From Frigoriflavimonas asaccharolytica (GTDB taxonomy: Bacteria; Bacteroidota; Bacteroidia; Flavobacteriales; Weeksellaceae), in assembly GCF_013294015.1 (NCBI RefSeq), contig NZ_JABSNO010000022.1, forward strand, positions 1 to 59,091: a stretch of 59,091 nt of DNA, in the 5' to 3' direction. Both the position numbers and the translations under genes were made by a program. Shown piece by piece: positions 3,909 through 36,128 of this stretch. Position 1 is the stretch's first letter, and each line of letters begins with the position of its first letter. The notes beneath the pieces were generated by a model, which ran no database searches, was not told the DNA's origin, and was given only the letters and a program-made list of their open reading frames with translations.

Positions 3909-4379
3909 CTACAAATCATCGAAAAATTCAAACACATATTCTTCTTTGTATTCTATCTCAAATTTTGTTAATAATTCCAAATATTCTTGTTTAAAAGATT
4001 GTTTCTTATGATGTTCCTTTTGGTTTAAAATATATTTGGAAACTCTATCTACTTGGCTTTTGGAATAAGAAAACGCACCATATCCTATTTGCCAATTAAA
4101 TTTACCACGAAACCAATTTTCATCATTCATCATCTTTGAAGAATCCGATTTTATATCTCGTACAATATCTGGAATCAAAACATTCAAATCATTATAGCCA
4201 ATCAAGATATGAATATGATCTGGATTTGCATAAATAGCCAACAATTTCTGGTTTTTATTTTGAATAATTCCGGTAATGTACTTTTCTAATCGATCTCTTT
4301 TTTCTTCTGTAATTAATTTTTCTCTATATTTTACAGCGAAAACCAATTGGATAAAAATTTGTGAATACGTGTTTGCCAT
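3909..4379 (-). CDS. IS200/IS605-like Y1 (HUH) transposase
   Basis: A 156-residue single-domain Y1 transposase, a family of single-strand DNA nucleases that recognise hairpins and join through a tyrosine-DNA intermediate. The HUH pair is His55-Ile-His57 in NPDHIHILIG; the catalytic tyrosine is probably Tyr116 in KYILNQKEHH. Length and motif spacing are those of an intact enzyme. No TnpB accompanies it. Hairpin repeats in opposite orientations flank it (3652-3791 and 4391-4665), the arrangement seen for REP-associated transposases. It interrupts the MoxR/DUF4350 operon in the same orientation. Confidence 0.88.
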   Translation of the reverse strand: MANTYSQIFIQLVFAVKYREKLITEEKRDRLEKYITGIIQNKNQKLLAIYANPDHIHILIGYNDLNVLIPDIVRDIKSDSSKMMNDENWFRGKFNWQIGYGAFSYSKSQVDRVSKYILNQKEHHKKQSFKQEYLELLTKFEIEYKEEYVFEFFDDL

Positions 4380-4390
4380 AATTACAAAAT

Positions 4391-4665
4391 CTACAAAGGT
4401 TGGGCTTCTCTGAAGCCGTGTTGCGTTCTAATTTTTTTTAATATCTACAAAGGTTGGGCTTCTCTGAAGCCGTGTTGCGTTCTAATTTTTTTTAATATCT
4501 ACAAAGGTTGGACTTCTCTGAAGTTCTAATTTTTTTTAATATCTACAAAGGTTGCGCTTCTCTGAAGCCGTGTTGCGTTCTAATTTTTTTTAATATCTAC
4601 AAAGGTTGGGCTTCTCTGAAGCCATTTTGCATTTTATTTTTTTGAAGTTTGGGCTTCTATGAAGC
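4391..4665 (+). repeat. Five tandem 54-bp hairpin units plus one solo hairpin
   Basis: Units begin CTACAAAGGTTG at 4391, 4445, 4499, 4543 and 4597, giving spacings of 54, 54, 44 and 54 bp. Each contains GGCTTCTCTGAAGCC or a variant (6-bp stem, 3-base loop) and ends in a T-rich tract. Unit 3 lacks ten bases after the hairpin. A sixth hairpin, GCTTCTATGAAGC, is at 4653-4665. The array occupies almost the whole gap between the transposase start and DUF4350. It is not a CRISPR, because the units are identical throughout with no unique spacers. Confidence 0.9.
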
Positions 4666-5872: not shown

Positions 5873-6682
5873 TCACAGTATTTTATTTTTTGATAAAGAA
5901 GAATTTAAAAAATCTTCTTTAAATTTTTGATACAAATCTTCGTCTATTTTTTGCTCACCATACCAAACGTTCTCAAAAATATAAGATAGTTTTTGGTAGG
6001 AATCTCTGTTATTTTCTGAAGCAATTTCTGCAATATAGTCGGTATTTGTTTTTTCGGGATTCCAATGTATCAGTTTTTGATCCGTCATTTTCTTTAAAAT
6101 AAATAAAAATTGATACCGTATTGCCGAGCGAAATTCTCTTTTATTTTCAAACTCTGCAATAGAATTTGGAAAATTTATCTCATGTATGTTTTCATGAAGC
6201 ACTGAACTATTGATATTTATAACTTTATCTTTTCTAGAGAAAAAGAAATTTCCATCTTTCCCAAGCAAATACCGAATGATGAAGAATAAAGCTGCTGCAA
6301 CAATTAAAATAGCTAATATTTTCAAAAATAATTCTACACCACCTACAGCATTGGGAGCGTTTCCAAATATACTTTCCCAGATTTTCTCAAATTTTCTTTT
6401 TATTCTAGTCCAAAGAGATTCTTGAGGTTTTATGGTAGAATAATCAAATTCTTTGCTTTGATATTTTTTCGTGAAATTGTCTGCTAATTTTTTAGGATAA
6501 AGTGTATTTTCTGTAGTATAGTTTGTTCTAAGTAGGGAATCGATCTTTATGGTATTCATATCTTCTACTACTGAAATAGAATCTAATATTCCAGGCGAAA
6601 TTTGTTCTTCATCTTGAGAGAAAAGAAAAGAAGAAATAAAAACTAAAAAGAGTAGGAAAATTCTAGATTGCATGAGTACCAA
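5873..6682 (-). CDS. DUF4129 domain protein
   Basis: A 269-residue protein with a signal peptide, a central membrane helix (about 117-139) and a C-terminal DUF4129 region. The latter shows REFRSAIRYQFLFILKKM (182-199) and FENVWYG (236-242), the typical segments. The start at 6682 overlaps the upstream gene by 20 bp; the internal Met4 (6673) gives MQSRIFLLFLVF, a better signal peptide, with an 11-bp overlap. Either choice implies translational coupling. It is part of the SpoIIM-to-DUF4350 run. No biochemical function is known. Confidence 0.82.
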   Translation of the reverse strand: MVLMQSRIFLLFLVFISSFLFSQDEEQISPGILDSISVVEDMNTIKIDSLLRTNYTTENTLYPKKLADNFTKKYQSKEFDYSTIKPQESLWTRIKRKFEKIWESIFGNAPNAVGGVELFLKILAILIVAAALFFIIRYLLGKDGNFFFSRKDKVININSSVLHENIHEINFPNSIAEFENKREFRSAIRYQFLFILKKMTDQKLIHWNPEKTNTDYIAEIASENNRDSYQKLSYIFENVWYGEQKIDEDLYQKFKEDFLNSSLSKNKIL

Positions 6683-7622
6683 TGGTGTCTATTTCTTCTA
6701 AATTTTTGTCTCTGTGAAGGTCTGTTCTGCTATCATAATACAAAAGGCCAGAGTTTACATAGATGATATTGCTTAAGATTAAGGACATTAAAATTGCAAG
6801 TCCATAAAATACGAAAAACATAATACCCAAAGAGTCAAATGGATTTTCGTTTCCACCCTTTTCTTTTACCGTAAATGCAGAGAACATTATCATAAATAAT
6901 GGAATTGTAGTAAAAATTGAAGTAATTACTTGAATGATGATATACATTATCGTTGTGGATCCCCAATATTTCCAAAAGGGAGATTTTTCTCTTTGATGGC
7001 TGTATGAGAATTGCGAGCGAACGGCGTAGCTCAAACTTTCGAAAAAGCCTTTCTTGGTGTGTAGAAAATCATACAATAAAAAATTGACCACATTCATTAA
7101 TGTTGGCATCACGAAAAGTAAAACTAGCAATCCTATAATGATGAATATTAAGAGATAACTGATACCAATAAGTATTAATGCGAGTGGAGAAACTACAAAA
7201 AATAACCCGAGAAAAAGGATTGCCATTCTTTTTCCGTTGCGCTTCATATCTCCTAAAATTTGATCTGCTTTAATGTTTTTGTCGCCAGTTTCGCTTAATC
7301 TTTTAAGATAAAAAACCGGGTAAGAATAATTGATAACAGAAACTGCAAGGAATAAAAACAATACAAATAAACACACGATTACCAAGACAATAGTATTTTC
7401 TTGAAAATATTGTTGAAAAAAATAATTTTGACCTTCTGTATTTGCGTCGAAAATTTGGGAGAATAATTCTCTGTAGCCAAAAACAACAATTACCATTAGC
7501 AAAATCAATAGCAAACCATTTAGTAAAAAATAGTTTTTGAAATAATTTTTTCCATTTTCTTTAAAAAATTGGAAAGTATCACTAATCATAGCGCCAAAAT
7601 CTCTTTTTTTATAAAATTCCAT
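6663..7622 (-). CDS. Polytopic membrane protein of the MoxR cluster
   Basis: A 319-residue integral membrane protein with about six hydrophobic segments, including 30-48, 72-95, 131-175 and 220-245. It starts with MEFYKKRDFGAMISDTFQFF, the short amphipathic lead typical of this uncharacterised flavobacterial family. It overlaps the preceding SpoIIM gene by 14 bp and the following DUF4129 gene by up to 20 bp, so translation is probably coupled. Function is unknown; I infer a structural or transport role with its operon neighbours. Confidence 0.75.
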   Translation of the reverse strand: MEFYKKRDFGAMISDTFQFFKENGKNYFKNYFLLNGLLLILLMVIVVFGYRELFSQIFDANTEGQNYFFQQYFQENTIVLVIVCLFVLFLFLAVSVINYSYPVFYLKRLSETGDKNIKADQILGDMKRNGKRMAILFLGLFFVVSPLALILIGISYLLIFIIIGLLVLLFVMPTLMNVVNFLLYDFLHTKKGFFESLSYAVRSQFSYSHQREKSPFWKYWGSTTIMYIIIQVITSIFTTIPLFMIMFSAFTVKEKGGNENPFDSLGIMFFVFYGLAILMSLILSNIIYVNSGLLYYDSRTDLHRDKNLEEIDTIGTHAI

Positions 7623-30653: not shown

Positions 30654-30701
30654 AGGAATTTTATGGTGGCGGGAAATTTTATTTACTTTTGTGTAAAGAT
30701 T

Positions 30702-30827
30702 GGTCACGGATTGCAAATCCGCGAGATCGGATTATCAGTTAAAAAATATATAACAGGTAATCTTGATAGTGAATCGATTCTTATTGAACAAATCAATTCG
30801 GATGAGGTTGCAAATCCGCGATATGGG
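30702..30827 (+). repeat. REP family 2, copies a and b (R orientation)
   Basis: A complete hairpin copy at 30702-30730 contains GTCACGGATTGCAAATCC then GCGAGATCGG. A second, half copy at about 30808-30827 has GTTGCAAATCCGCGATAT. Together they precede the 30858 gene. The full copy pairs ACGGATT with AATCCGC-type bases around a short loop. Confidence 0.75.
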
Positions 30828-30857
30828 AAAAGAAAAACTTTTATAAATTACAATAAT

Positions 30858-31493
30858 ATGACAATACAAGAAAAATTTTACTCAATAATAGATGAATTGT
30901 TTAAAAATAATCCATCAATATTAAAAATAAATTCAGGAAATAAAGTTTCAAGTATATTATTATTCAAAGATTTTATTAATATAATAAAAATTTGGAAAGA
31001 TAATTTAAACTTAGCATACACTCCATTTGCAAGAAAGATTAGTTTAGATAATCAAATGTTAATAAATGATATTAATCAAAATTGGCATAATCAATTACCC
31101 ACAATAACTGAATTTAAAGAATATGTTTCAATAAAATATAATTTTGAATTTAGTACAAATGTATTAAATTATGTATACATATATTTTTATATTACTTGGG
31201 AAGTTTTTAAAGATAAAGAAAATGTAATAAAATTTAATTTGCAAAATCCATATAAAGGCTTAATTCAATTATTTATTCAAGACAATATTTATATGCATGA
31301 AGGTATATATATAGGTAATATAACAATGAGTCATAGTAAAAGTATTAACTTTAAACTACCCTCTATTGATAATGATTTTTTAGATTATATAGATAAAAAA
31401 TGTAAATTAGTTGGTAGTGATGGTATTCCCAATCAAGAAGAAGTTAATCAACTATGGGAAGAATTTCAAAAACCCAATGTCGCGGATTTGTAA
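30858..31493 (+). CDS. Hypothetical protein in repeat island
   Basis: A 211-residue protein from ATG 30858 (MTIQEKFYSIIDELF). The open frame extends back to 30663, but that part is repeat DNA and gives unnatural sequence, so I reject it. Content is rich in Asn, Ile, Lys and aromatic residues; no signal peptide, no membrane helix, no family recognised. The last residues NVADL and the stop codon come from a REP copy at 31478-31502, so the natural C-terminus may be lost. A/T content is higher than in the eno gene, in line with a transferred gene. Confidence 0.6.
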   Translation: MTIQEKFYSIIDELFKNNPSILKINSGNKVSSILLFKDFINIIKIWKDNLNLAYTPFARKISLDNQMLINDINQNWHNQLPTITEFKEYVSIKYNFEFSTNVLNYVYIYFYITWEVFKDKENVIKFNLQNPYKGLIQLFIQDNIYMHEGIYIGNITMSHSKSINFKLPSIDNDFLDYIDKKCKLVGSDGIPNQEEVNQLWEEFQKPNVADL

Positions 31494-31553
31494 TCCGTGA
31501 CCTGATATGTAATCCGTGACCAACTTATAACTATCTTTAATTAAAAATATGTC
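31478..31553 (+). repeat. REP family 2, copy c plus duplicated transposase leader (L orientation)
   Basis: Copy c at 31478-31502 contains GTCGCGGATTTGTAATCCG, followed by a half copy ending ATCCGTGACC, then 31522-31553, which matches the leader and first bases ATGTC of the transposase at 32668-32700 except for one substitution and one indel. It therefore carries an ATG (31549) opening a six-codon frame. Confidence 0.8.
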
Positions 31554-31587
31554 TGATGTTGAAGATTAATAAAAAAAAAGGAAATTA

Positions 31588-31887
31588 ATGAAATCTATTA
31601 AATTACTAATAATTTTGCTCCTTTTTATAGGGTGCAAGTCGGAAAAAGAATGGAATAAAGAAGAGTTAGAAATTGTTACATTTTATATAAATGAAAAATT
31701 ATTTAGAGATGTTCTTTCTCCTGATATAAATAAAGAGTTTATAGAAATATATGAAAAAGATAGTGCAAATTATAATACACTTCAAAAATATATGGAGTTA
31801 GATTCGATAGTTACAAAAGAAGTTTCAAAAAGAAAGTTCTACATTACAATATCAGACTTTGATGTTCCACCTTATTTAAAATTTTAA
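31588..31887 (+). CDS. Small hypothetical lipoprotein
   Basis: A 99-residue lipoprotein: hydrophobic residues 4-14, lipobox LFIGC with Cys16. The mature part is charged and unrecognised. It follows the duplicated transposase leader by about 35 bp and precedes the 31892 gene by 4 bp, so the two probably form a unit and may be driven by the copied leader. Function unknown. Confidence 0.65.
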   Translation: MKSIKLLIILLLFIGCKSEKEWNKEELEIVTFYINEKLFRDVLSPDINKEFIEIYEKDSANYNTLQKYMELDSIVTKEVSKRKFYITISDFDVPPYLKF

Positions 31888-31891
31888 TATT

Positions 31892-32467
31892 ATGGCAGGA
31901 ACAAATAAATTTAAAAATATTTATGGTAAGGATATTACTAATAACCAAACAACCTCGTTGAAAGAATATCTCAAAGAATTTTATATAGACGGCATACTAA
32001 AAAAATCAGAACGAATAGAAAATAGTAAAGTAGAATTTACTTATTATTATTTAGATGATTCAGAAAATATAAACAATTTATTACCTTTATACCTCAATAA
32101 AAAAGTTTCTTTTTACAATATTTCTTTTGTAAATAACCTTAAATTAGAAGTTATTTATTCTTATGAAAATGGAATATTAGTAGGTAGATGTAAATCAGTT
32201 ATTGATAGTGGAAATAAAATAGTATGTTATCAAGGACTTGATATTTCAGGATTACCAATAAATACTGAAACAAGGAAATATTTTTATGAAAATAATGAGC
32301 CAAAATATACATTTGAGTATGATGAAAATGGTGATTGTTTTATAATCTATGATGATACTACCGATCAGCAAGATATTTTTGCTTGGGATATAGGCGATCC
32401 AAACTTGACTTCATTTTCGTGGCAAGGTTTTGAATATTACGAACATGCAGAACCTATAATACCATAG
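31892..32467 (+). CDS. Hypothetical protein paired with small lipoprotein
   Basis: A 191-residue protein with no signal peptide, acidic, rich in Tyr, Asn and Asp, with the flavour of beta-rich repeat proteins (YDENGDCFIIYDDTTD). No family is recognised. Its start lies 4 bp after the lipoprotein stop. Small orphan gene pairs of this style in Bacteroidota are sometimes immunity proteins of polymorphic toxins, but no toxin is seen here, so that is only a thought. Confidence 0.6.
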   Translation: MAGTNKFKNIYGKDITNNQTTSLKEYLKEFYIDGILKKSERIENSKVEFTYYYLDDSENINNLLPLYLNKKVSFYNISFVNNLKLEVIYSYENGILVGRCKSVIDSGNKIVCYQGLDISGLPINTETRKYFYENNEPKYTFEYDENGDCFIIYDDTTDQQDIFAWDIGDPNLTSFSWQGFEYYEHAEPIIP

Positions 32468-32477
32468 TAGGATAATT

Positions 32478-32658
32478 ATGGCACAAATATTAGATAAAAT
32501 ATTAGTTGTAGATGTAGAAGCTATTTGTTGGGAAGGCAAACTTCTAGAATATGGTAAATGATATTATAGAAATAGGTATCTGTTTATTAGATGTAAACAC
32601 TGGAGAAGTTTCTGATAATAGAGGGATATTGGTAAAACCAGATGTCGCGGATTTGTAA
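32478..32658 (+). pseudogene. Remnant of a DEDDh 3-5 exonuclease gene
   Basis: ATG 32478 opens ILDKILVVDVEAICWEGKL, which matches the N-terminal ExoI motif (VVDxE...CWEG) of KapD-like DEDDh exonucleases. The frame stops at 32559-32561; one frame over, DIIEIGICLLDVNTGEVSD continues the family sequence. It then runs into REP copy d and ends DVADL. About 60 of the usual 180-200 residues remain, with a frameshift, so this is a broken gene. Confidence 0.72.
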
Positions 32659-32700
32659 TCCGTGACCAACTTATAACTATTTTTAATTAAAAAATATGTC
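32643..32700 (+). repeat. REP family 2, copy d and transposase leader (L orientation)
   Basis: Copy d at 32643-32667 contains GTCGCGGATTTGTAATCCG. The following 33 bases lead into the transposase ATG and are nearly identical to 31522-31553. On the other side of the gene, copy e is its inverse with one mismatch in 25. Confidence 0.82.
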
Positions 32701-33250
32701 CACTTCTTACAAAGCCACAGAAATAGATAGTGCCTATTTCATCACGATCACAATTGTTGGTTGGGTAGATGTTTTTACAAGACTATCGCAGAAAATGGTC
32801 ATTATTGATTCTTTTAAATATTGCCAAACACAAAAAGGCTTGACGATTTTTGCGTATTGTTTAATGTCTAATCATCTGCATTTATTTTGTAGAGCAGACG
32901 GAAAATATTTGCTTTCTGAAATAATGCGAGATCTCAAAAAATTTACTTCAAAGAAAATAATTGAAACCATGCAATCTGAACCTGAAAGTAGAAAAGAGTG
33001 GATGTTAGATTATTTTAAAAAATCTTGCGAACATCTTGCACGAGAGCAAAATTATAAAGTTTGGCAAGATGGCTATCATGCAGAAGAAGTATTTTCTAAT
33101 AAATGGATTAAAGAAAAAATAAATTACGTTCATCAAAATCCTGTGAAGCAGAAAATTGTAAGTGAGCCAGAACATTACTATTTTAGCAGTGCAAGAAATT
33201 ATGCGGATTTAGAATGTGCGATAGATGTGGAAGTTGTTTTTATGGGGTGA
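32696..33250 (+). CDS. REP-associated tyrosine transposase (RAYT)
   Basis: A 184-residue Y1/HUH transposase of the REP-associated type, larger than and only distantly similar to the one at 3909-4379. The HUH pair is His60-Leu-His62 in MSNHLHLFCR; the catalytic tyrosine is probably Tyr144 in INYVHQNPV, followed by the RAYT-type tail PEHYYFSSARNY (158-169). The motifs are intact. REP copies d and e flank it in opposite orientation within 60 bp, as for known RAYTs. Known RAYTs cleave REP hairpins in single strands and are usually not transposed as ordinary IS elements. Confidence 0.9.
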   Translation: MSTSYKATEIDSAYFITITIVGWVDVFTRLSQKMVIIDSFKYCQTQKGLTIFAYCLMSNHLHLFCRADGKYLLSEIMRDLKKFTSKKIIETMQSEPESRKEWMLDYFKKSCEHLAREQNYKVWQDGYHAEEVFSNKWIKEKINYVHQNPVKQKIVSEPEHYYFSSARNYADLECAIDVEVVFMG

Positions 33251-33253
33251 AGT

Positions 33254-33314
33254 GGTCACGGATTGCAAATCCGCGACATCGGAAGAGATCGGGTTAAAAA
33301 TCCGCGACAACGGG
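33254..33314 (+). repeat. REP family 2, copies e and f (R orientation)
   Basis: Copy e at 33254-33282 contains GTCACGGATTGCAAATCCG followed by CGACATCGG; a half copy to 33314 has AAAATCCGCGACAACGGG. The pair of a full copy followed by a half copy repeats the pattern at 30702-30827. Confidence 0.78.
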
Positions 33315-33362
33315 AATAATGCTGCAAAAGATTTTAGGCAACAACGTTAAATCAGGGACTTG

Positions 33363-33440
33363 AAATCAGAAAAAAAGCCATCTATTTTAGATATTTATAA
33401 AAAATCAGAAGATAATTTACGAGCAAGACCATGTTATTAA
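33363..33440 (+). pseudogene. Possible C-terminal gene remnant next to REP copy f
   Basis: An open frame without start gives KPSILDIYKKSEDNLRARPCY and a TAA at 33438-33440. It looks protein-like but is not recognised. A broken gene end is plausible beside a REP; chance cannot be excluded. Confidence 0.25.
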
Positions 33441-33459
33441 CTCAAAATCCCTAAATAAT

Positions 33460-34134
33460 ATGAATTTTAAAACTAAAATAGTTACGATTTTATTATTCTC
33501 TTTATTAATTACGAATTGTAAGGAGGAATTGAAAGAATGTGTAAGCCAATCTACTGATACTAATGTAAAACTATATAATGATTTAACAGATCAGTTGATA
33601 CCTTATTTTTTTAGAGAAGATTATTTAGGTGATAAAAGATATTTTGATAGTTTAAGAGTTCATGATGATAATTTATATATCGAAGAGAAGACAAAAGCGC
33701 ACAACGAAATTTTTAATCATCCTGAAAAATTTTGCAATTTGTATATAGATTCTACTAAAAGTAAAAATACATATTTTGCTACAGATAATACCGAGGTTTA
33801 TTTAAGACGCATAATCAGAACGAAGGATTTTTTTAAAGACTTTTCTAATAGTCCAGATATTAAAAATTTAAGCATACGAAGTACTATAAAAGCAAATCAA
33901 TTTAATTTGTGTACCGCAAAAGTCCTAGATCTGGCAGAGTATGATACAAATGATTGTGAGATAGGTGTTATCTATTTTTCAGAGATTGTATTCGATACTT
34001 CAAAAAAAAGAGCATTAGTTTTTGTTGACCATCATATAAAAAAAGATTATTACGGTAGAAATGCTGTATTTATACTAAGATTGCATGATAATTATTGGGA
34101 AATAGAAGATGCTATGTTAATGTCAACTTCCTAA
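33460..34134 (+). CDS. Hypothetical lipoprotein in repeat island
   Basis: A 224-residue lipoprotein: hydrophobic residues 8-18, lipobox LITNC with Cys20. The mature region carries several Cys and charged patches (CVSQSTDTN, KFCNLYIDS, NDCEIGVIY). No family is recognised. It lies between REP copies e/f and g. It has its own ATG with an AT-rich leader. Function unknown. Confidence 0.65.
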   Translation: MNFKTKIVTILLFSLLITNCKEELKECVSQSTDTNVKLYNDLTDQLIPYFFREDYLGDKRYFDSLRVHDDNLYIEEKTKAHNEIFNHPEKFCNLYIDSTKSKNTYFATDNTEVYLRRIIRTKDFFKDFSNSPDIKNLSIRSTIKANQFNLCTAKVLDLAEYDTNDCEIGVIYFSEIVFDTSKKRALVFVDHHIKKDYYGRNAVFILRLHDNYWEIEDAMLMSTS

Positions 34135-34162
34135 TTTCAAGCTCTTTTCTTTTTTCTCCTGC

Positions 34163-34187
34163 TGTCGCGGATTTGTAATCGGAGACC
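34163..34187 (+). repeat. REP family 2, copy g (L orientation)
   Basis: The bases read GTCGCGGATTTGTAATCGG then AGACC, differing from copies c and d at two positions in the second arm. It is a solo copy beyond the lipoprotein gene. Confidence 0.75.
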
Positions 34188-34227
34188 AACATCATTAAAA
34201 AAAAACAAATTAATTCACCTTAAAATA

Positions 34228-34337
34228 AAACCTGCGCAACTTTGACCATAAACATGCGCATGTTTCACTCCATTCTTGCTTAGGTTTCATATCAAACATG
34301 CGCAGGTTTCATCACAAACATGCGCAGGTTTCTACAA
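34228..34337 (+). repeat. Five-unit array with exact 22-bp period, core TGCGCA
   Basis: Units start at 34228, 34250, 34272, 34294 and 34316, each exactly 22 bp apart. Unit cores: AAACCTGCGCAACTTT, AAACATGCGCATGTTT (a perfect 16-bp palindrome), ATTCTTGCTTAGGTTT (decayed), and AAACATGCGCAGGTTT twice. A small hairpin follows. The array is 130 bp upstream of the lipoprotein at 34467 and just beyond REP copy g. Confidence 0.85.
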
Positions 34338-34865: not shown

Positions 34866-36128
34866 CTATTTTAATGTATTTTCTAGTGTTTTGATGTTGC
34901 CATCTACTGGTTCTGTAATTTTAAGTCCCAATATTTGCGCTATCAAAGGATAGACGTGTATATTTTCAAATGGTTTTATCTTAAGATTATTTTTGAAAGC
35001 TGGTCCGAAGGCGTAGAAAGTTGCACGCATTTCGGGCGTTTTTTTGGAATCGTAGCCATGCTTTCCTACAGATGTTTTCTTCCCTTTTTCTAGAAAAATA
35101 TTTGGTGCTTTTGGAACTAAAAGTATTTGCCCGATCCTATCGTACAAGTCGTCTTTTTCTGAAAAATGAAATCTTTTGGGGAAGTTGCTATCGAGATAAA
35201 CTTTGTAATTTCTGTTTTTACTTCTCTTTAATTCTTTGTAGGTTTCTTTTACTAATTCAGGATTTTTCACAAATACCCTCAAAAGTGTTTGAGAATTATA
35301 GTAATCAAATCGAGATTTATCTTTCAAAATTTCTGGAATATCCATCGCTTCTTCTTTTGCTACTTTTATCATCCCGTGATCTGAAACAAAAATAAAGTTC
35401 ATATTTTCTAATCCCAATTCTTTTACTTTTGCTACTAAACTTCCTACAGCAGCATCTACCACATGCACAGCTTGCTCTGCTTCTGGGCTTTCTGGTCCAA
35501 ATTTGTGCCCATCATGATCTACTTCTGGAAAATATAAGGTGATAAAATGAGGTCTTTTATCCTCAGGTAATTTCAACCAATTGATGACTTTTTCTACCTT
35601 ATCATCTGGGGAAAATTTCTCGTGATAATTATAATAGTACGTTGGTCTTTTACCTCCAGCATCACTTTCTGACCCTACCCAAAACATTGATGCAGCTATC
35701 ATCCCTTGCTTTTCTGCCAAGCTCCATAGTGGGATTCCTCCATACCAACTGCCATCTCTTACCTTCGTTTTGTCGCTCATTGCATAAGTTTCCTTTCTTT
35801 TATAATCATAAAAATAATTATCTACCAAACCATGATGGGCAGGATATAATCCTGTTGCAATGGTGTAATGATTGGGGAAAGTGATGCTCGGAAAACTTGG
35901 CAACATAGATTCTCCTTGAACTCCACTTTCGGCAAGTTTTAGAAGATTAGTAGCATTATATTTTTTAGCAAAATCATATCGAAAGCCATCTGCAGAAATA
36001 AGAATCACATAAGGTTTTTTTGTTGCAGCGATGGTATTTTCTCTATCCGGAATTACGATTTGAGCTGTATCTGATTGAGAATAGGAAAAATTAAAACTTA
36101 AGATTAATAGAAAAATAAGATGTTTCAT
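34866..36128 (-). CDS. Ectonucleotide pyrophosphatase/phosphodiesterase-like alkaline phosphatase family protein
   Basis: A 420-residue secreted enzyme (signal peptide 1-17). All seven metal and nucleophile residues of the NPP family are visible: Asp47, Thr83 (nucleophile in SFPSITFPNHY), Asp204, His208, Asp250, His251 and His356 (VGKHGYD). NPP enzymes hydrolyse nucleotide or phospholipid pyrophosphate and phosphodiester bonds. The substrate here is unknown. It is a single gene just downstream of rplQ with its own signal peptide, so periplasmic. Confidence 0.93.
   Translation of the reverse strand: MKHLIFLLILSFNFSYSQSDTAQIVIPDRENTIAATKKPYVILISADGFRYDFAKKYNATNLLKLAESGVQGESMLPSFPSITFPNHYTIATGLYPAHHGLVDNYFYDYKRKETYAMSDKTKVRDGSWYGGIPLWSLAEKQGMIAASMFWVGSESDAGGKRPTYYYNYHEKFSPDDKVEKVINWLKLPEDKRPHFITLYFPEVDHDGHKFGPESPEAEQAVHVVDAAVGSLVAKVKELGLENMNFIFVSDHGMIKVAKEEAMDIPEILKDKSRFDYYNSQTLLRVFVKNPELVKETYKELKRSKNRNYKVYLDSNFPKRFHFSEKDDLYDRIGQILLVPKAPNIFLEKGKKTSVGKHGYDSKKTPEMRATFYAFGPAFKNNLKIKPFENIHVYPLIAQILGLKITEPVDGNIKTLENTLK

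Follow-up and report, generated by a model that had tools for sequence, protein, structure and literature searches.

What domesticated REP-associated tyrosine transposases (RAYTs) do for their hosts is, to our knowledge, an open question. Repetitive extragenic palindromes (REPs) are described as accumulating around rayt genes in an arrangement termed the REPtron, with classical REPs usually exceeding 100 copies per genome (PMC2817692), and the two superfamilies of REPs that have been described are defined by a GTAG or a CGTC tag (PMC3733652). Studied RAYT relatives are reported to bind the single-stranded REP hairpin and to cleave through a tyrosine; in vitro, TnpAREP cleaves single-stranded DNA beside the hairpin and links the end to another strand (PMC8266576). 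One kind, TnpAREP subclass 2.6 (RAYT group 5), carries the motifs NH[LIV]H, WQ, YIH[QN]NP and SS at a mean length of 179 residues, and the parts of that account dealing with it mention neither orphan immunity genes as neighbours nor REPs at gene seams (PMC6006769). A different system, the recombinase-associated acquired interbacterial defence (rAID) array of Bacteroidales, is described as combining a tyrosine recombinase with short orphan immunity genes, all in one orientation, and motifs between them, and its origin is said to be under active study (PMC12247911). Here, we describe an island in a 59,091-nucleotide stretch of the Frigoriflavimonas asaccharolytica genome (contig NZ_JABSNO010000022.1; hereafter the window), in which seven palindromes (full, partial or degenerate) and one extra half copy lie around a 184-residue RAYT between 30.7 and 34.2 kb (Table 1). 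Our reading, of moderate confidence, is that orphan immunity genes against foreign toxins of the Rhs or type VI secretion system (T6SS) type form an array here, seamed by RAYT/REP elements around a subclass 2.6 RAYT.

The island shares part of its organization with each of the described systems. As in the REPtron, the RAYT lies between two inverted REPs with more REPs nearby (PMC2817692); unlike in the REPtron, the copies are few, cluster at immunity-like genes and have a CGAT-like 5' tag in place of GTAG. Its occurrence in Bacteroidetes, its length of about 180 residues, its motifs and its flanking palindromes with copies elsewhere are those given for subclass 2.6 (PMC6006769). Co-oriented, short immunity-like genes are a trait of rAID arrays, whose genes span 100-300 codons (PMC12247911), and this trait appears in the island, where all genes lie on one strand (four small genes of 99-224 residues, plus strand) and three of the four have homologues behind toxin-like genes. 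REPs lie between the island genes, a position that in rAID arrays is taken by repeated motifs. Unlike a rAID array, the island has no tyrosine recombinase (Pfam, seven open reading frames (ORFs)), its repeats are RAYT-type palindromes and gene fragments are included; it resembles a rAID array minus the recombinase. Relatives of the 224-residue gene sit in Rhs or other polymorphic toxin-immunity cassettes, whereas the immunity-like genes of the island stand without toxins and at a non-Rhs locus. Integron cassettes are single-gene units with folded single-strand sites between them. The island, too, consists of single-gene units with folding sites between; unlike in integrons, the enzyme chemistry is a different one and the island ORFs include no integrase (the search did not extend to attC sites). 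Among the literature matches listed, which leave most subscription journals outside, none links RAYTs or REPs to immunity genes.

The small island genes are most likely orphan immunity genes whose toxins are absent, as their relatives indicate. The 224-residue lipoprotein has matches in 21 of the 295 other family genomes, all but one of them in genus g21 (taken to be Chryseobacterium, and the source of what we call Chryseobacterium-type genomes). One homologue lies 20 bp 3' of an ORF with an Rhs core (L255; Rhs_assc_core, E 5e-21), and two lie inside Rhs arrays after shorter ORFs that share its C-terminal tail (L253, L254). The first island ORF, read as 276 residues from 30663, more likely comprises about 210 residues; its first part runs through REPs a and b. 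This 210-residue gene has matches in 8 of the 295 genomes (E<=0.001); in one it is found directly 3' of a 1125-residue ORF (L258), in another after a 1165-residue ORF and two small ORFs (L259), and the two large ORFs have about 900 residues in common and differ in their C-termini. In L149, a homologue lies between REPs, beside a RAYT. Matches to the 191-residue gene were found in 25 of the 295 genomes (E<=0.001, some weak), directly 3' of 878- and 947-residue ORFs in L260 and L262 that have their C-terminal half in common. The tail FDVPPYLKF of the 99-residue ORF resembles FDVSPYIKF, the tail of an ORF preceding a 191-residue-gene homologue (L197), and this end is perhaps that of an effector.

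Such a layout is that of a polymorphic toxin followed by its immunity gene, and since the island has no ORF of the size of the toxin partners, its genes are read as orphan immunity genes; they would, we infer from these relationships, protect the cell. None of the four small genes matches a Pfam family, and over seven ORFs of or beside the island Y1_Tnp alone passes the cut-off among island genes (ORFs were taken from a simple six-frame picker, not from a gene caller). The large ORFs before the 210- and 191-residue homologues match no Pfam or NCBIfam family either (the 1165-residue ORF of L259 was not scanned), and their effector role is for this reason drawn from architecture. Naming the toxins was given up, as Pfam and NCBIfam name only the Rhs core of the L255 partner and DUF6603 in a neighbour.

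Evidence for capture comes from the unit at 33313-34161, which contains the end of an Rhs-associated gene and the 224-residue lipoprotein gene. At the DNA level, this unit shares 92-95% identity with several Chryseobacterium-type genomes, others being lower, down to 67% (L246). The genes eno, gltA, rplQ and rpoA are 77-80% identical (eno 77.6%) to those of L091, the only g21 genome compared, and the RAYT shares no more than 82% identity with any of three relatives examined. The unit is thus far closer than either the housekeeping genes or the RAYT, indicating, as judged from identity, that it was acquired horizontally and recently, probably after the RAYT. Transfer on a plasmid or phage was considered and dropped: RAYT records among mobile elements comprise five plasmid entries, all below 60% identity, and no phage, and the 224-residue gene has no plasmid match (no phage search was made for it).

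The edges of foreign or truncated DNA in the island lie at or very near REPs. On the left, the match starts at 33313-33315, the outer end of REP f, in 11 loci (10 genomes) that continue into the upstream partner gene, the frame of which was read in three of the 11. On the right, the matches stop between 34134 and 34161; in L227, L231 and L243, which then have a common terminator, they extend to 34161, leaving 2 bp between match and REP g palindrome. The third edge lies in the exonuclease-like remnant. Homologues of 182-186 residues run past ILVKP/ILIKP in 10 of 11 loci (the exception, L274, is a 90-residue ORF), whereas the window stops there and enters REP d; the cut at 32639-32640 is reached by 8 of 36 other exonuclease matches, the remainder ending sooner. 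In all, three homology breakpoints fall on REP ends or only a few bp away. REP c is not counted as a fourth, since homologues of the 210-residue gene end nearby too and this seam offers no independent evidence. REPs c (31479-31493) and d (32644-32658) each give the gene or remnant that they cut the identical in-frame end VADL-stop.

The island is absent from the corresponding place in relatives. Among 11 relatives, selected for identity and contig position from the 36 other genomes with an enolase match, none has the RAYT, REPs or island genes between eno and the next conserved gene, and 8 of the 11 have a homologue of the 119-residue lipoprotein gene beyond eno, about 0.1-0.3 kb off in six of these. 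In a twelfth region (G009), the neighbours of eno differ. In this genome, which belongs to another genus, enolase is immediately preceded by a related RAYT, oriented the other way and accompanied by REPs and orphan genes (L085, 5100-7200), a placement that is either a coincidence, a second insertion or a flip. The earlier note on this DNA had taken repeats limited to the locus, combined with a gene order conserved in relatives, as the sign of vertical inheritance. The repeats are indeed nearly limited to the locus, the gene order is not conserved, and with 11 of 11 relatives lacking the island, its vertical inheritance is rejected. That note's picture of a foreign, variable island bracketed by repeats and of a RAYT linked to its own palindromes is upheld, the bracketing in the stronger sense that three homology breakpoints lie at or near REP ends; its observations were mostly right, and its interpretation has changed in that the toxin-immunity character of the genes had been missed.

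The RAYT itself is of a known kind and, by profile and motifs, fits TnpAREP subclass 2.6. It passes the cut-offs of both Pfam Y1_Tnp (42.1 bits, cut-off 23) and NCBIfam REP_Tyr_transpos, NF047646 (100.3 bits, cut-off 80), and contains NHLH, VWQDG, YVHQNP (V for I) and YFSSARNY within its 184 residues. A profile of five RAYT relatives matches TnpArep 4ER8 (E 1.7e-4) and aligns Y144 to residue 115, the position of a named catalytic mutant, Y115F (PMC8266576). The active-site residues are intact. Matches to the RAYT occur in 19 of 58 other genomes compared, part of them being other RAYT types, and a scan of one genome per species kept at least 80 loci. In 51 of 87 loci, the RAYT gene lies between exact inverted repeats no shorter than 12 bp, and in 34 of 87 between ones no shorter than 17 bp, counts that were made without regard to palindromicity and in which short repeats possibly arise by chance. 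A Chryseobacterium study has noted a RayT gene near a multidrug pump gene (PMC11194056). The genome has eight Y1_Tnp matches at E<=1, five of which exceed the cut-off. The other Y1 transposase of the window (4020-4367), which has tandem imperfect palindromes TTGGGCTTCTCTGAAGCC beside it (4390-4650), belongs to a set of three with similar Y1_Tnp scores in this genome; no link between the window's two Y1 transposases was found, without further searching.

The REPs of the island form a small family. As the earlier note had described, the RAYT is accompanied by an inverted pair, d and e, the arms of which we measure as 28 nt long and 96% complementary, and by the additional copies a, b, c, f and g, to which the half copy behind c can now be added; its rule that a full copy is followed by a half copy applies to a-b, e-f and also c. 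It had likewise been correct on the AT-richness of the small genes (GC 0.23-0.26, against 0.33-0.40 in the neighbours) and on two lipoprotein-type ORFs, recognized by eye. When folded as single strands, REPs c, d and e form a 10-bp stem and REP a a 9-bp stem, with a 3-nt loop (b was not folded), and the folding of the worn REPs f and g is not clearly superior to that of shuffled sequences. Across 16 loci, the block that is conserved starts with a CCGAT-like tag and ends in CCGTG, and it is this tag, not the classical GTAG or CGTC, that the family carries. With at most two mismatches, the pattern GTCGCGGATTTGTAATCCG has seven matches in the 3.43-Mb genome (reversed control, 0), short of the copy number of classical REPs. 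Six of the seven lie inside the island and one on contig C7, and a looser pattern adds one match, at the start of contig C3 adjoining a RAYT fragment. The C7 copy is a lone REP (C7:10458, L003:1501) with a partial second copy directly behind it and a lipoprotein-type gene shortly after; at C3:1-400 (L016), a REP-RAYT unit lies within a gene bearing HPHLHCIVPGGG (IS91-like, by eye), and its RAYT ends abruptly after about 30-40 residues. Across 296 family genomes, the pattern has 0-30 matches per genome. The window contains no close inverted REP pair of the REPIN type, and relatives do hold plus-minus REP pairs spaced by 18-137 bp. The direct repeat D4 (31504-31547 against 32650-32693, 95%) includes a second copy of the RAYT leader, which is either what is left of a second RAYT unit or a duplicated leader.

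Table 1. Positions in the window of the palindromes, genes and gene remnants of the island
Feature	Position	Strand	Remarks
REP a	30703..30725	-	2 mismatches to core
REP b, partial	30798..30828	-	71% to a
orf276, likely start near 30861 (~210 aa), orphan immunity-like	30861..31493	+	REP c gives last codons and stop (VADL*)
REP c	31479..31502	+	0 mismatches to core
Half copy straight after REP c	31504..31521	+	Absent from the earlier note's list
Leader copy without RAYT, as precedes the RAYT start	31522..31555	+	Direct repeat D4
99-aa lipoprotein-type ORF	31588..31887	+	Tail FDVPPYLKF
191-aa gene, orphan immunity-like	31892..32467	+	
3'-5' exonuclease-like gene, frameshifted 5' remnant (~54/183 residues)	32481..32640	+	Cut at REP d
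REP d, including 5' tag	32641..32667 (palindrome 32644)	+	Upstream inverted partner of e
RAYT (TnpAREP), 184 aa	32696..33250	+	HUH motif NHLH (H60/H62); Y144
REP e	33254..33277	-	Downstream inverted partner of d
REP f, degenerate	33284..33312	-	Captured unit has its left seam at the outer end
Rhs-associated partner gene, last 42 codons, in-frame stop within	33313..33440	+	Came with its immunity gene; Rhs_assc_core in intact L255 partner
224-aa lipoprotein, likely orphan immunity gene of Rhs partner	33460..34134	+	
REP g	34158..34187 (palindrome 34164)	+	2 mismatches to core; right seam of the captured unit

Beyond REP g, four imperfect repeats with ACATGCGCAGGTTTC, spaced by 22 nt, lie before the next lipoprotein gene (34220-34332). 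Between the 119-residue lipoprotein gene and rplQ, the window has a type I phosphodiesterase/nucleotide pyrophosphatase gene (34866-36128), for which G006 (L090) has no space at the corresponding place.

Comparable series occur around RAYTs and REPs of other genomes. Between lacI and uxaA, which form one site as far as the contigs reach, Chryseobacterium loci have a RAYT and differ in cargo. There, L108 agrees with L105 and L336 as far as 4754, where the REP behind its RAYT has its outer end, and the match resumes at 6567 or 6570, the start of the next plus-strand REP; three orphan genes and more REPs lie between (L333 and L335 seem to be the same as L105 and L109 and were left out as extra cases). 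In F. fontis (L130), REPs and genes of GC 0.23-0.25 alternate, such series being found also in L149, L087 and L328, with L085 similar, and at two Rhs loci, L328 (G277 C16) and L334 (G291 C1:3.09-3.11 Mb), REPs follow immunity-like genes. ORFs less than 2 kb from a RAYT are more AT-rich (paired Wilcoxon, p = 4e-4) and shorter (paired, p = 2e-4) than those at 5-9.5 kb (179 vs 253 ORFs; the near ORFs have the lower GC in 34 of 46 loci). Pfam cut-offs were passed by 1 of 24 hand-picked cargo proteins (DUF7674), against 16 of 20 distant genes of comparable size taken randomly from 85; a match to Imm35, below threshold, was found in one cargo protein. It is the kind of gene that recurs at RAYT loci, and not its identity. 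That the same orphan genes stand at every RAYT was rejected, few being common when ORFs up to about 3.6 kb from the RAYT at 87 loci were compared with all ORFs of these loci, and the check proposed in the earlier note, for the same orphan genes at other RAYT loci, came out mostly negative, with one match, the 210-residue gene beside the RAYT of Flavobacteriaceae bacterium PS02293 (L149; 36% over 207 residues, E 4e-34).

The association of REPs with Rhs cores and RAYTs is real. At 30 REP sites taken without choice, one per genome, an Rhs core lies within 1.5 kb in five and a RAYT in three, against 0 of 29 for each in controls. Near the 224-residue gene (within 1.5 kb), a REP was found in 5 of 21 other genomes, with 0.07 expected.

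Several observations weigh against a REP-seamed array. Most REP sites lie elsewhere than at Rhs cores or RAYTs. The five REP-positive genomes of the 224-residue gene amount to about three independent events because of flanks in common; the probability of 4e-10 for five of 21 ignores these flanks, and with about three cases we estimate it at around 5e-5. G193 and G293, in which about 310 bp separate the 224-residue gene from a REP downstream, had been candidates for two independent single-copy cases and, having homologous flanks, are one. The end of the 210-residue gene at REP c coincides with a natural gene end. No REP was found behind the RAYT of L106 (at most three mismatches), and the REP arrays at the Rhs loci L328 and L334 have no RAYT within the 13-15 kb fetched, from which it follows that a RAYT need not be present in cis.

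Other such observations bear on a specific alternative. It is possible, if rather doubtful, that the REPs mark the array passively: the array would have grown by ordinary illegitimate or homologous recombination, as Rhs arrays do, and the RAYT unit and its REPs, inserted in tolerant spacers, would move nothing. Consistent with this, up to 1.5 kb on each side, no REP of the island family is near homologues of the 210-residue gene (0 of 10 loci) or the 191-residue gene (0 of 29); such REPs are, therefore, not needed for the spread of these genes, and the idea that they are their constant companions is rejected. A fourth cargo gene of L108 (118 residues, 6836-7192) has bounds, 6780 and 7238, that are not REP edges, and a RAYT unit also sits in the IS91-like gene at the start of contig C3. 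Moreover, several homologues of the 224-residue gene carry other palindromes or plain terminators at their 3' side, which would make REPs at seams perhaps a wider habit of several palindrome families, or else passive. In several genomes (L228-L245), the families GCGAGC..GCTCG, AAAGTC..GACTTT and CACGAA..TTCGTG occupy nearly the same place behind such homologues. What speaks against passive marking is that the three breakpoints of foreign or cut DNA in the window, and both edges of the three-gene cargo of L108, lie at REPs or, in the window, a few bp from them, whereas a REP that had entered a spacer afterwards would have donor DNA to its left and right.

A second alternative, which we regard as improbable, is that the REPs serve as short homologies for incoming cassettes, through RecA or annealing, the RAYT only maintaining and spreading them. 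Direct REPs after the immunity-like genes of the Rhs locus L334 would permit cassette loss or gain, and REPs are common to several species. Recombination between the inverted REPs that bound the cassettes of the window would, however, lead to inversion and not insertion, and none of the 11 loci with a continuing partner gene has a REP of the island family at the left seam (at most four mismatches). In addition, about 25 bp is short for homologous recombination. Very improbably, the REP hairpins are simply retained behind immunity genes to end or stabilize transcripts: hairpins behind 23 loci of the 224-residue gene do exceed those at 266 other gene ends (p = 3e-6; redundant loci L249, L251 and L252 dropped, several hairpins being ordinary terminators) and plus-strand REP copies lie 10-40 bp past stop codons in several arrays, but the REPs on 5' sides, the cut of the exonuclease gene at REP d and the 5' seam at REP f would be left unexplained.

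For the RAYT/REP-seamed array, the following course can be envisaged. Pieces of toxin-immunity loci would have been joined to REP ends between eno and the conserved lipoprotein gene, each piece comprising an immunity gene and at most the tail of a toxin gene. If the RAYT acts as its studied relatives do, it could join new DNA to a REP end or move a REP-bounded gene, and by this analogy it may have made the seams. Joining at a REP end would account for seams at or next to REP edges even though the 11 loci with a continuing partner gene have no such REP at the left seam.

Beyond this locus, we suggest tentatively that subclass 2.6 RAYTs may be active gene-capture enzymes by which single genes are gathered, swapped and shed through joining at REP hairpins, the cargo in Flavobacteriia being largely orphan immunity genes. 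If this is true, they would constitute an integron-like system of acquired defence that is built on an HUH transposase and not on a tyrosine recombinase. With REPs at the joints of captured immunity-like genes, both the assembly of such arrays and the role of the RAYT become testable.

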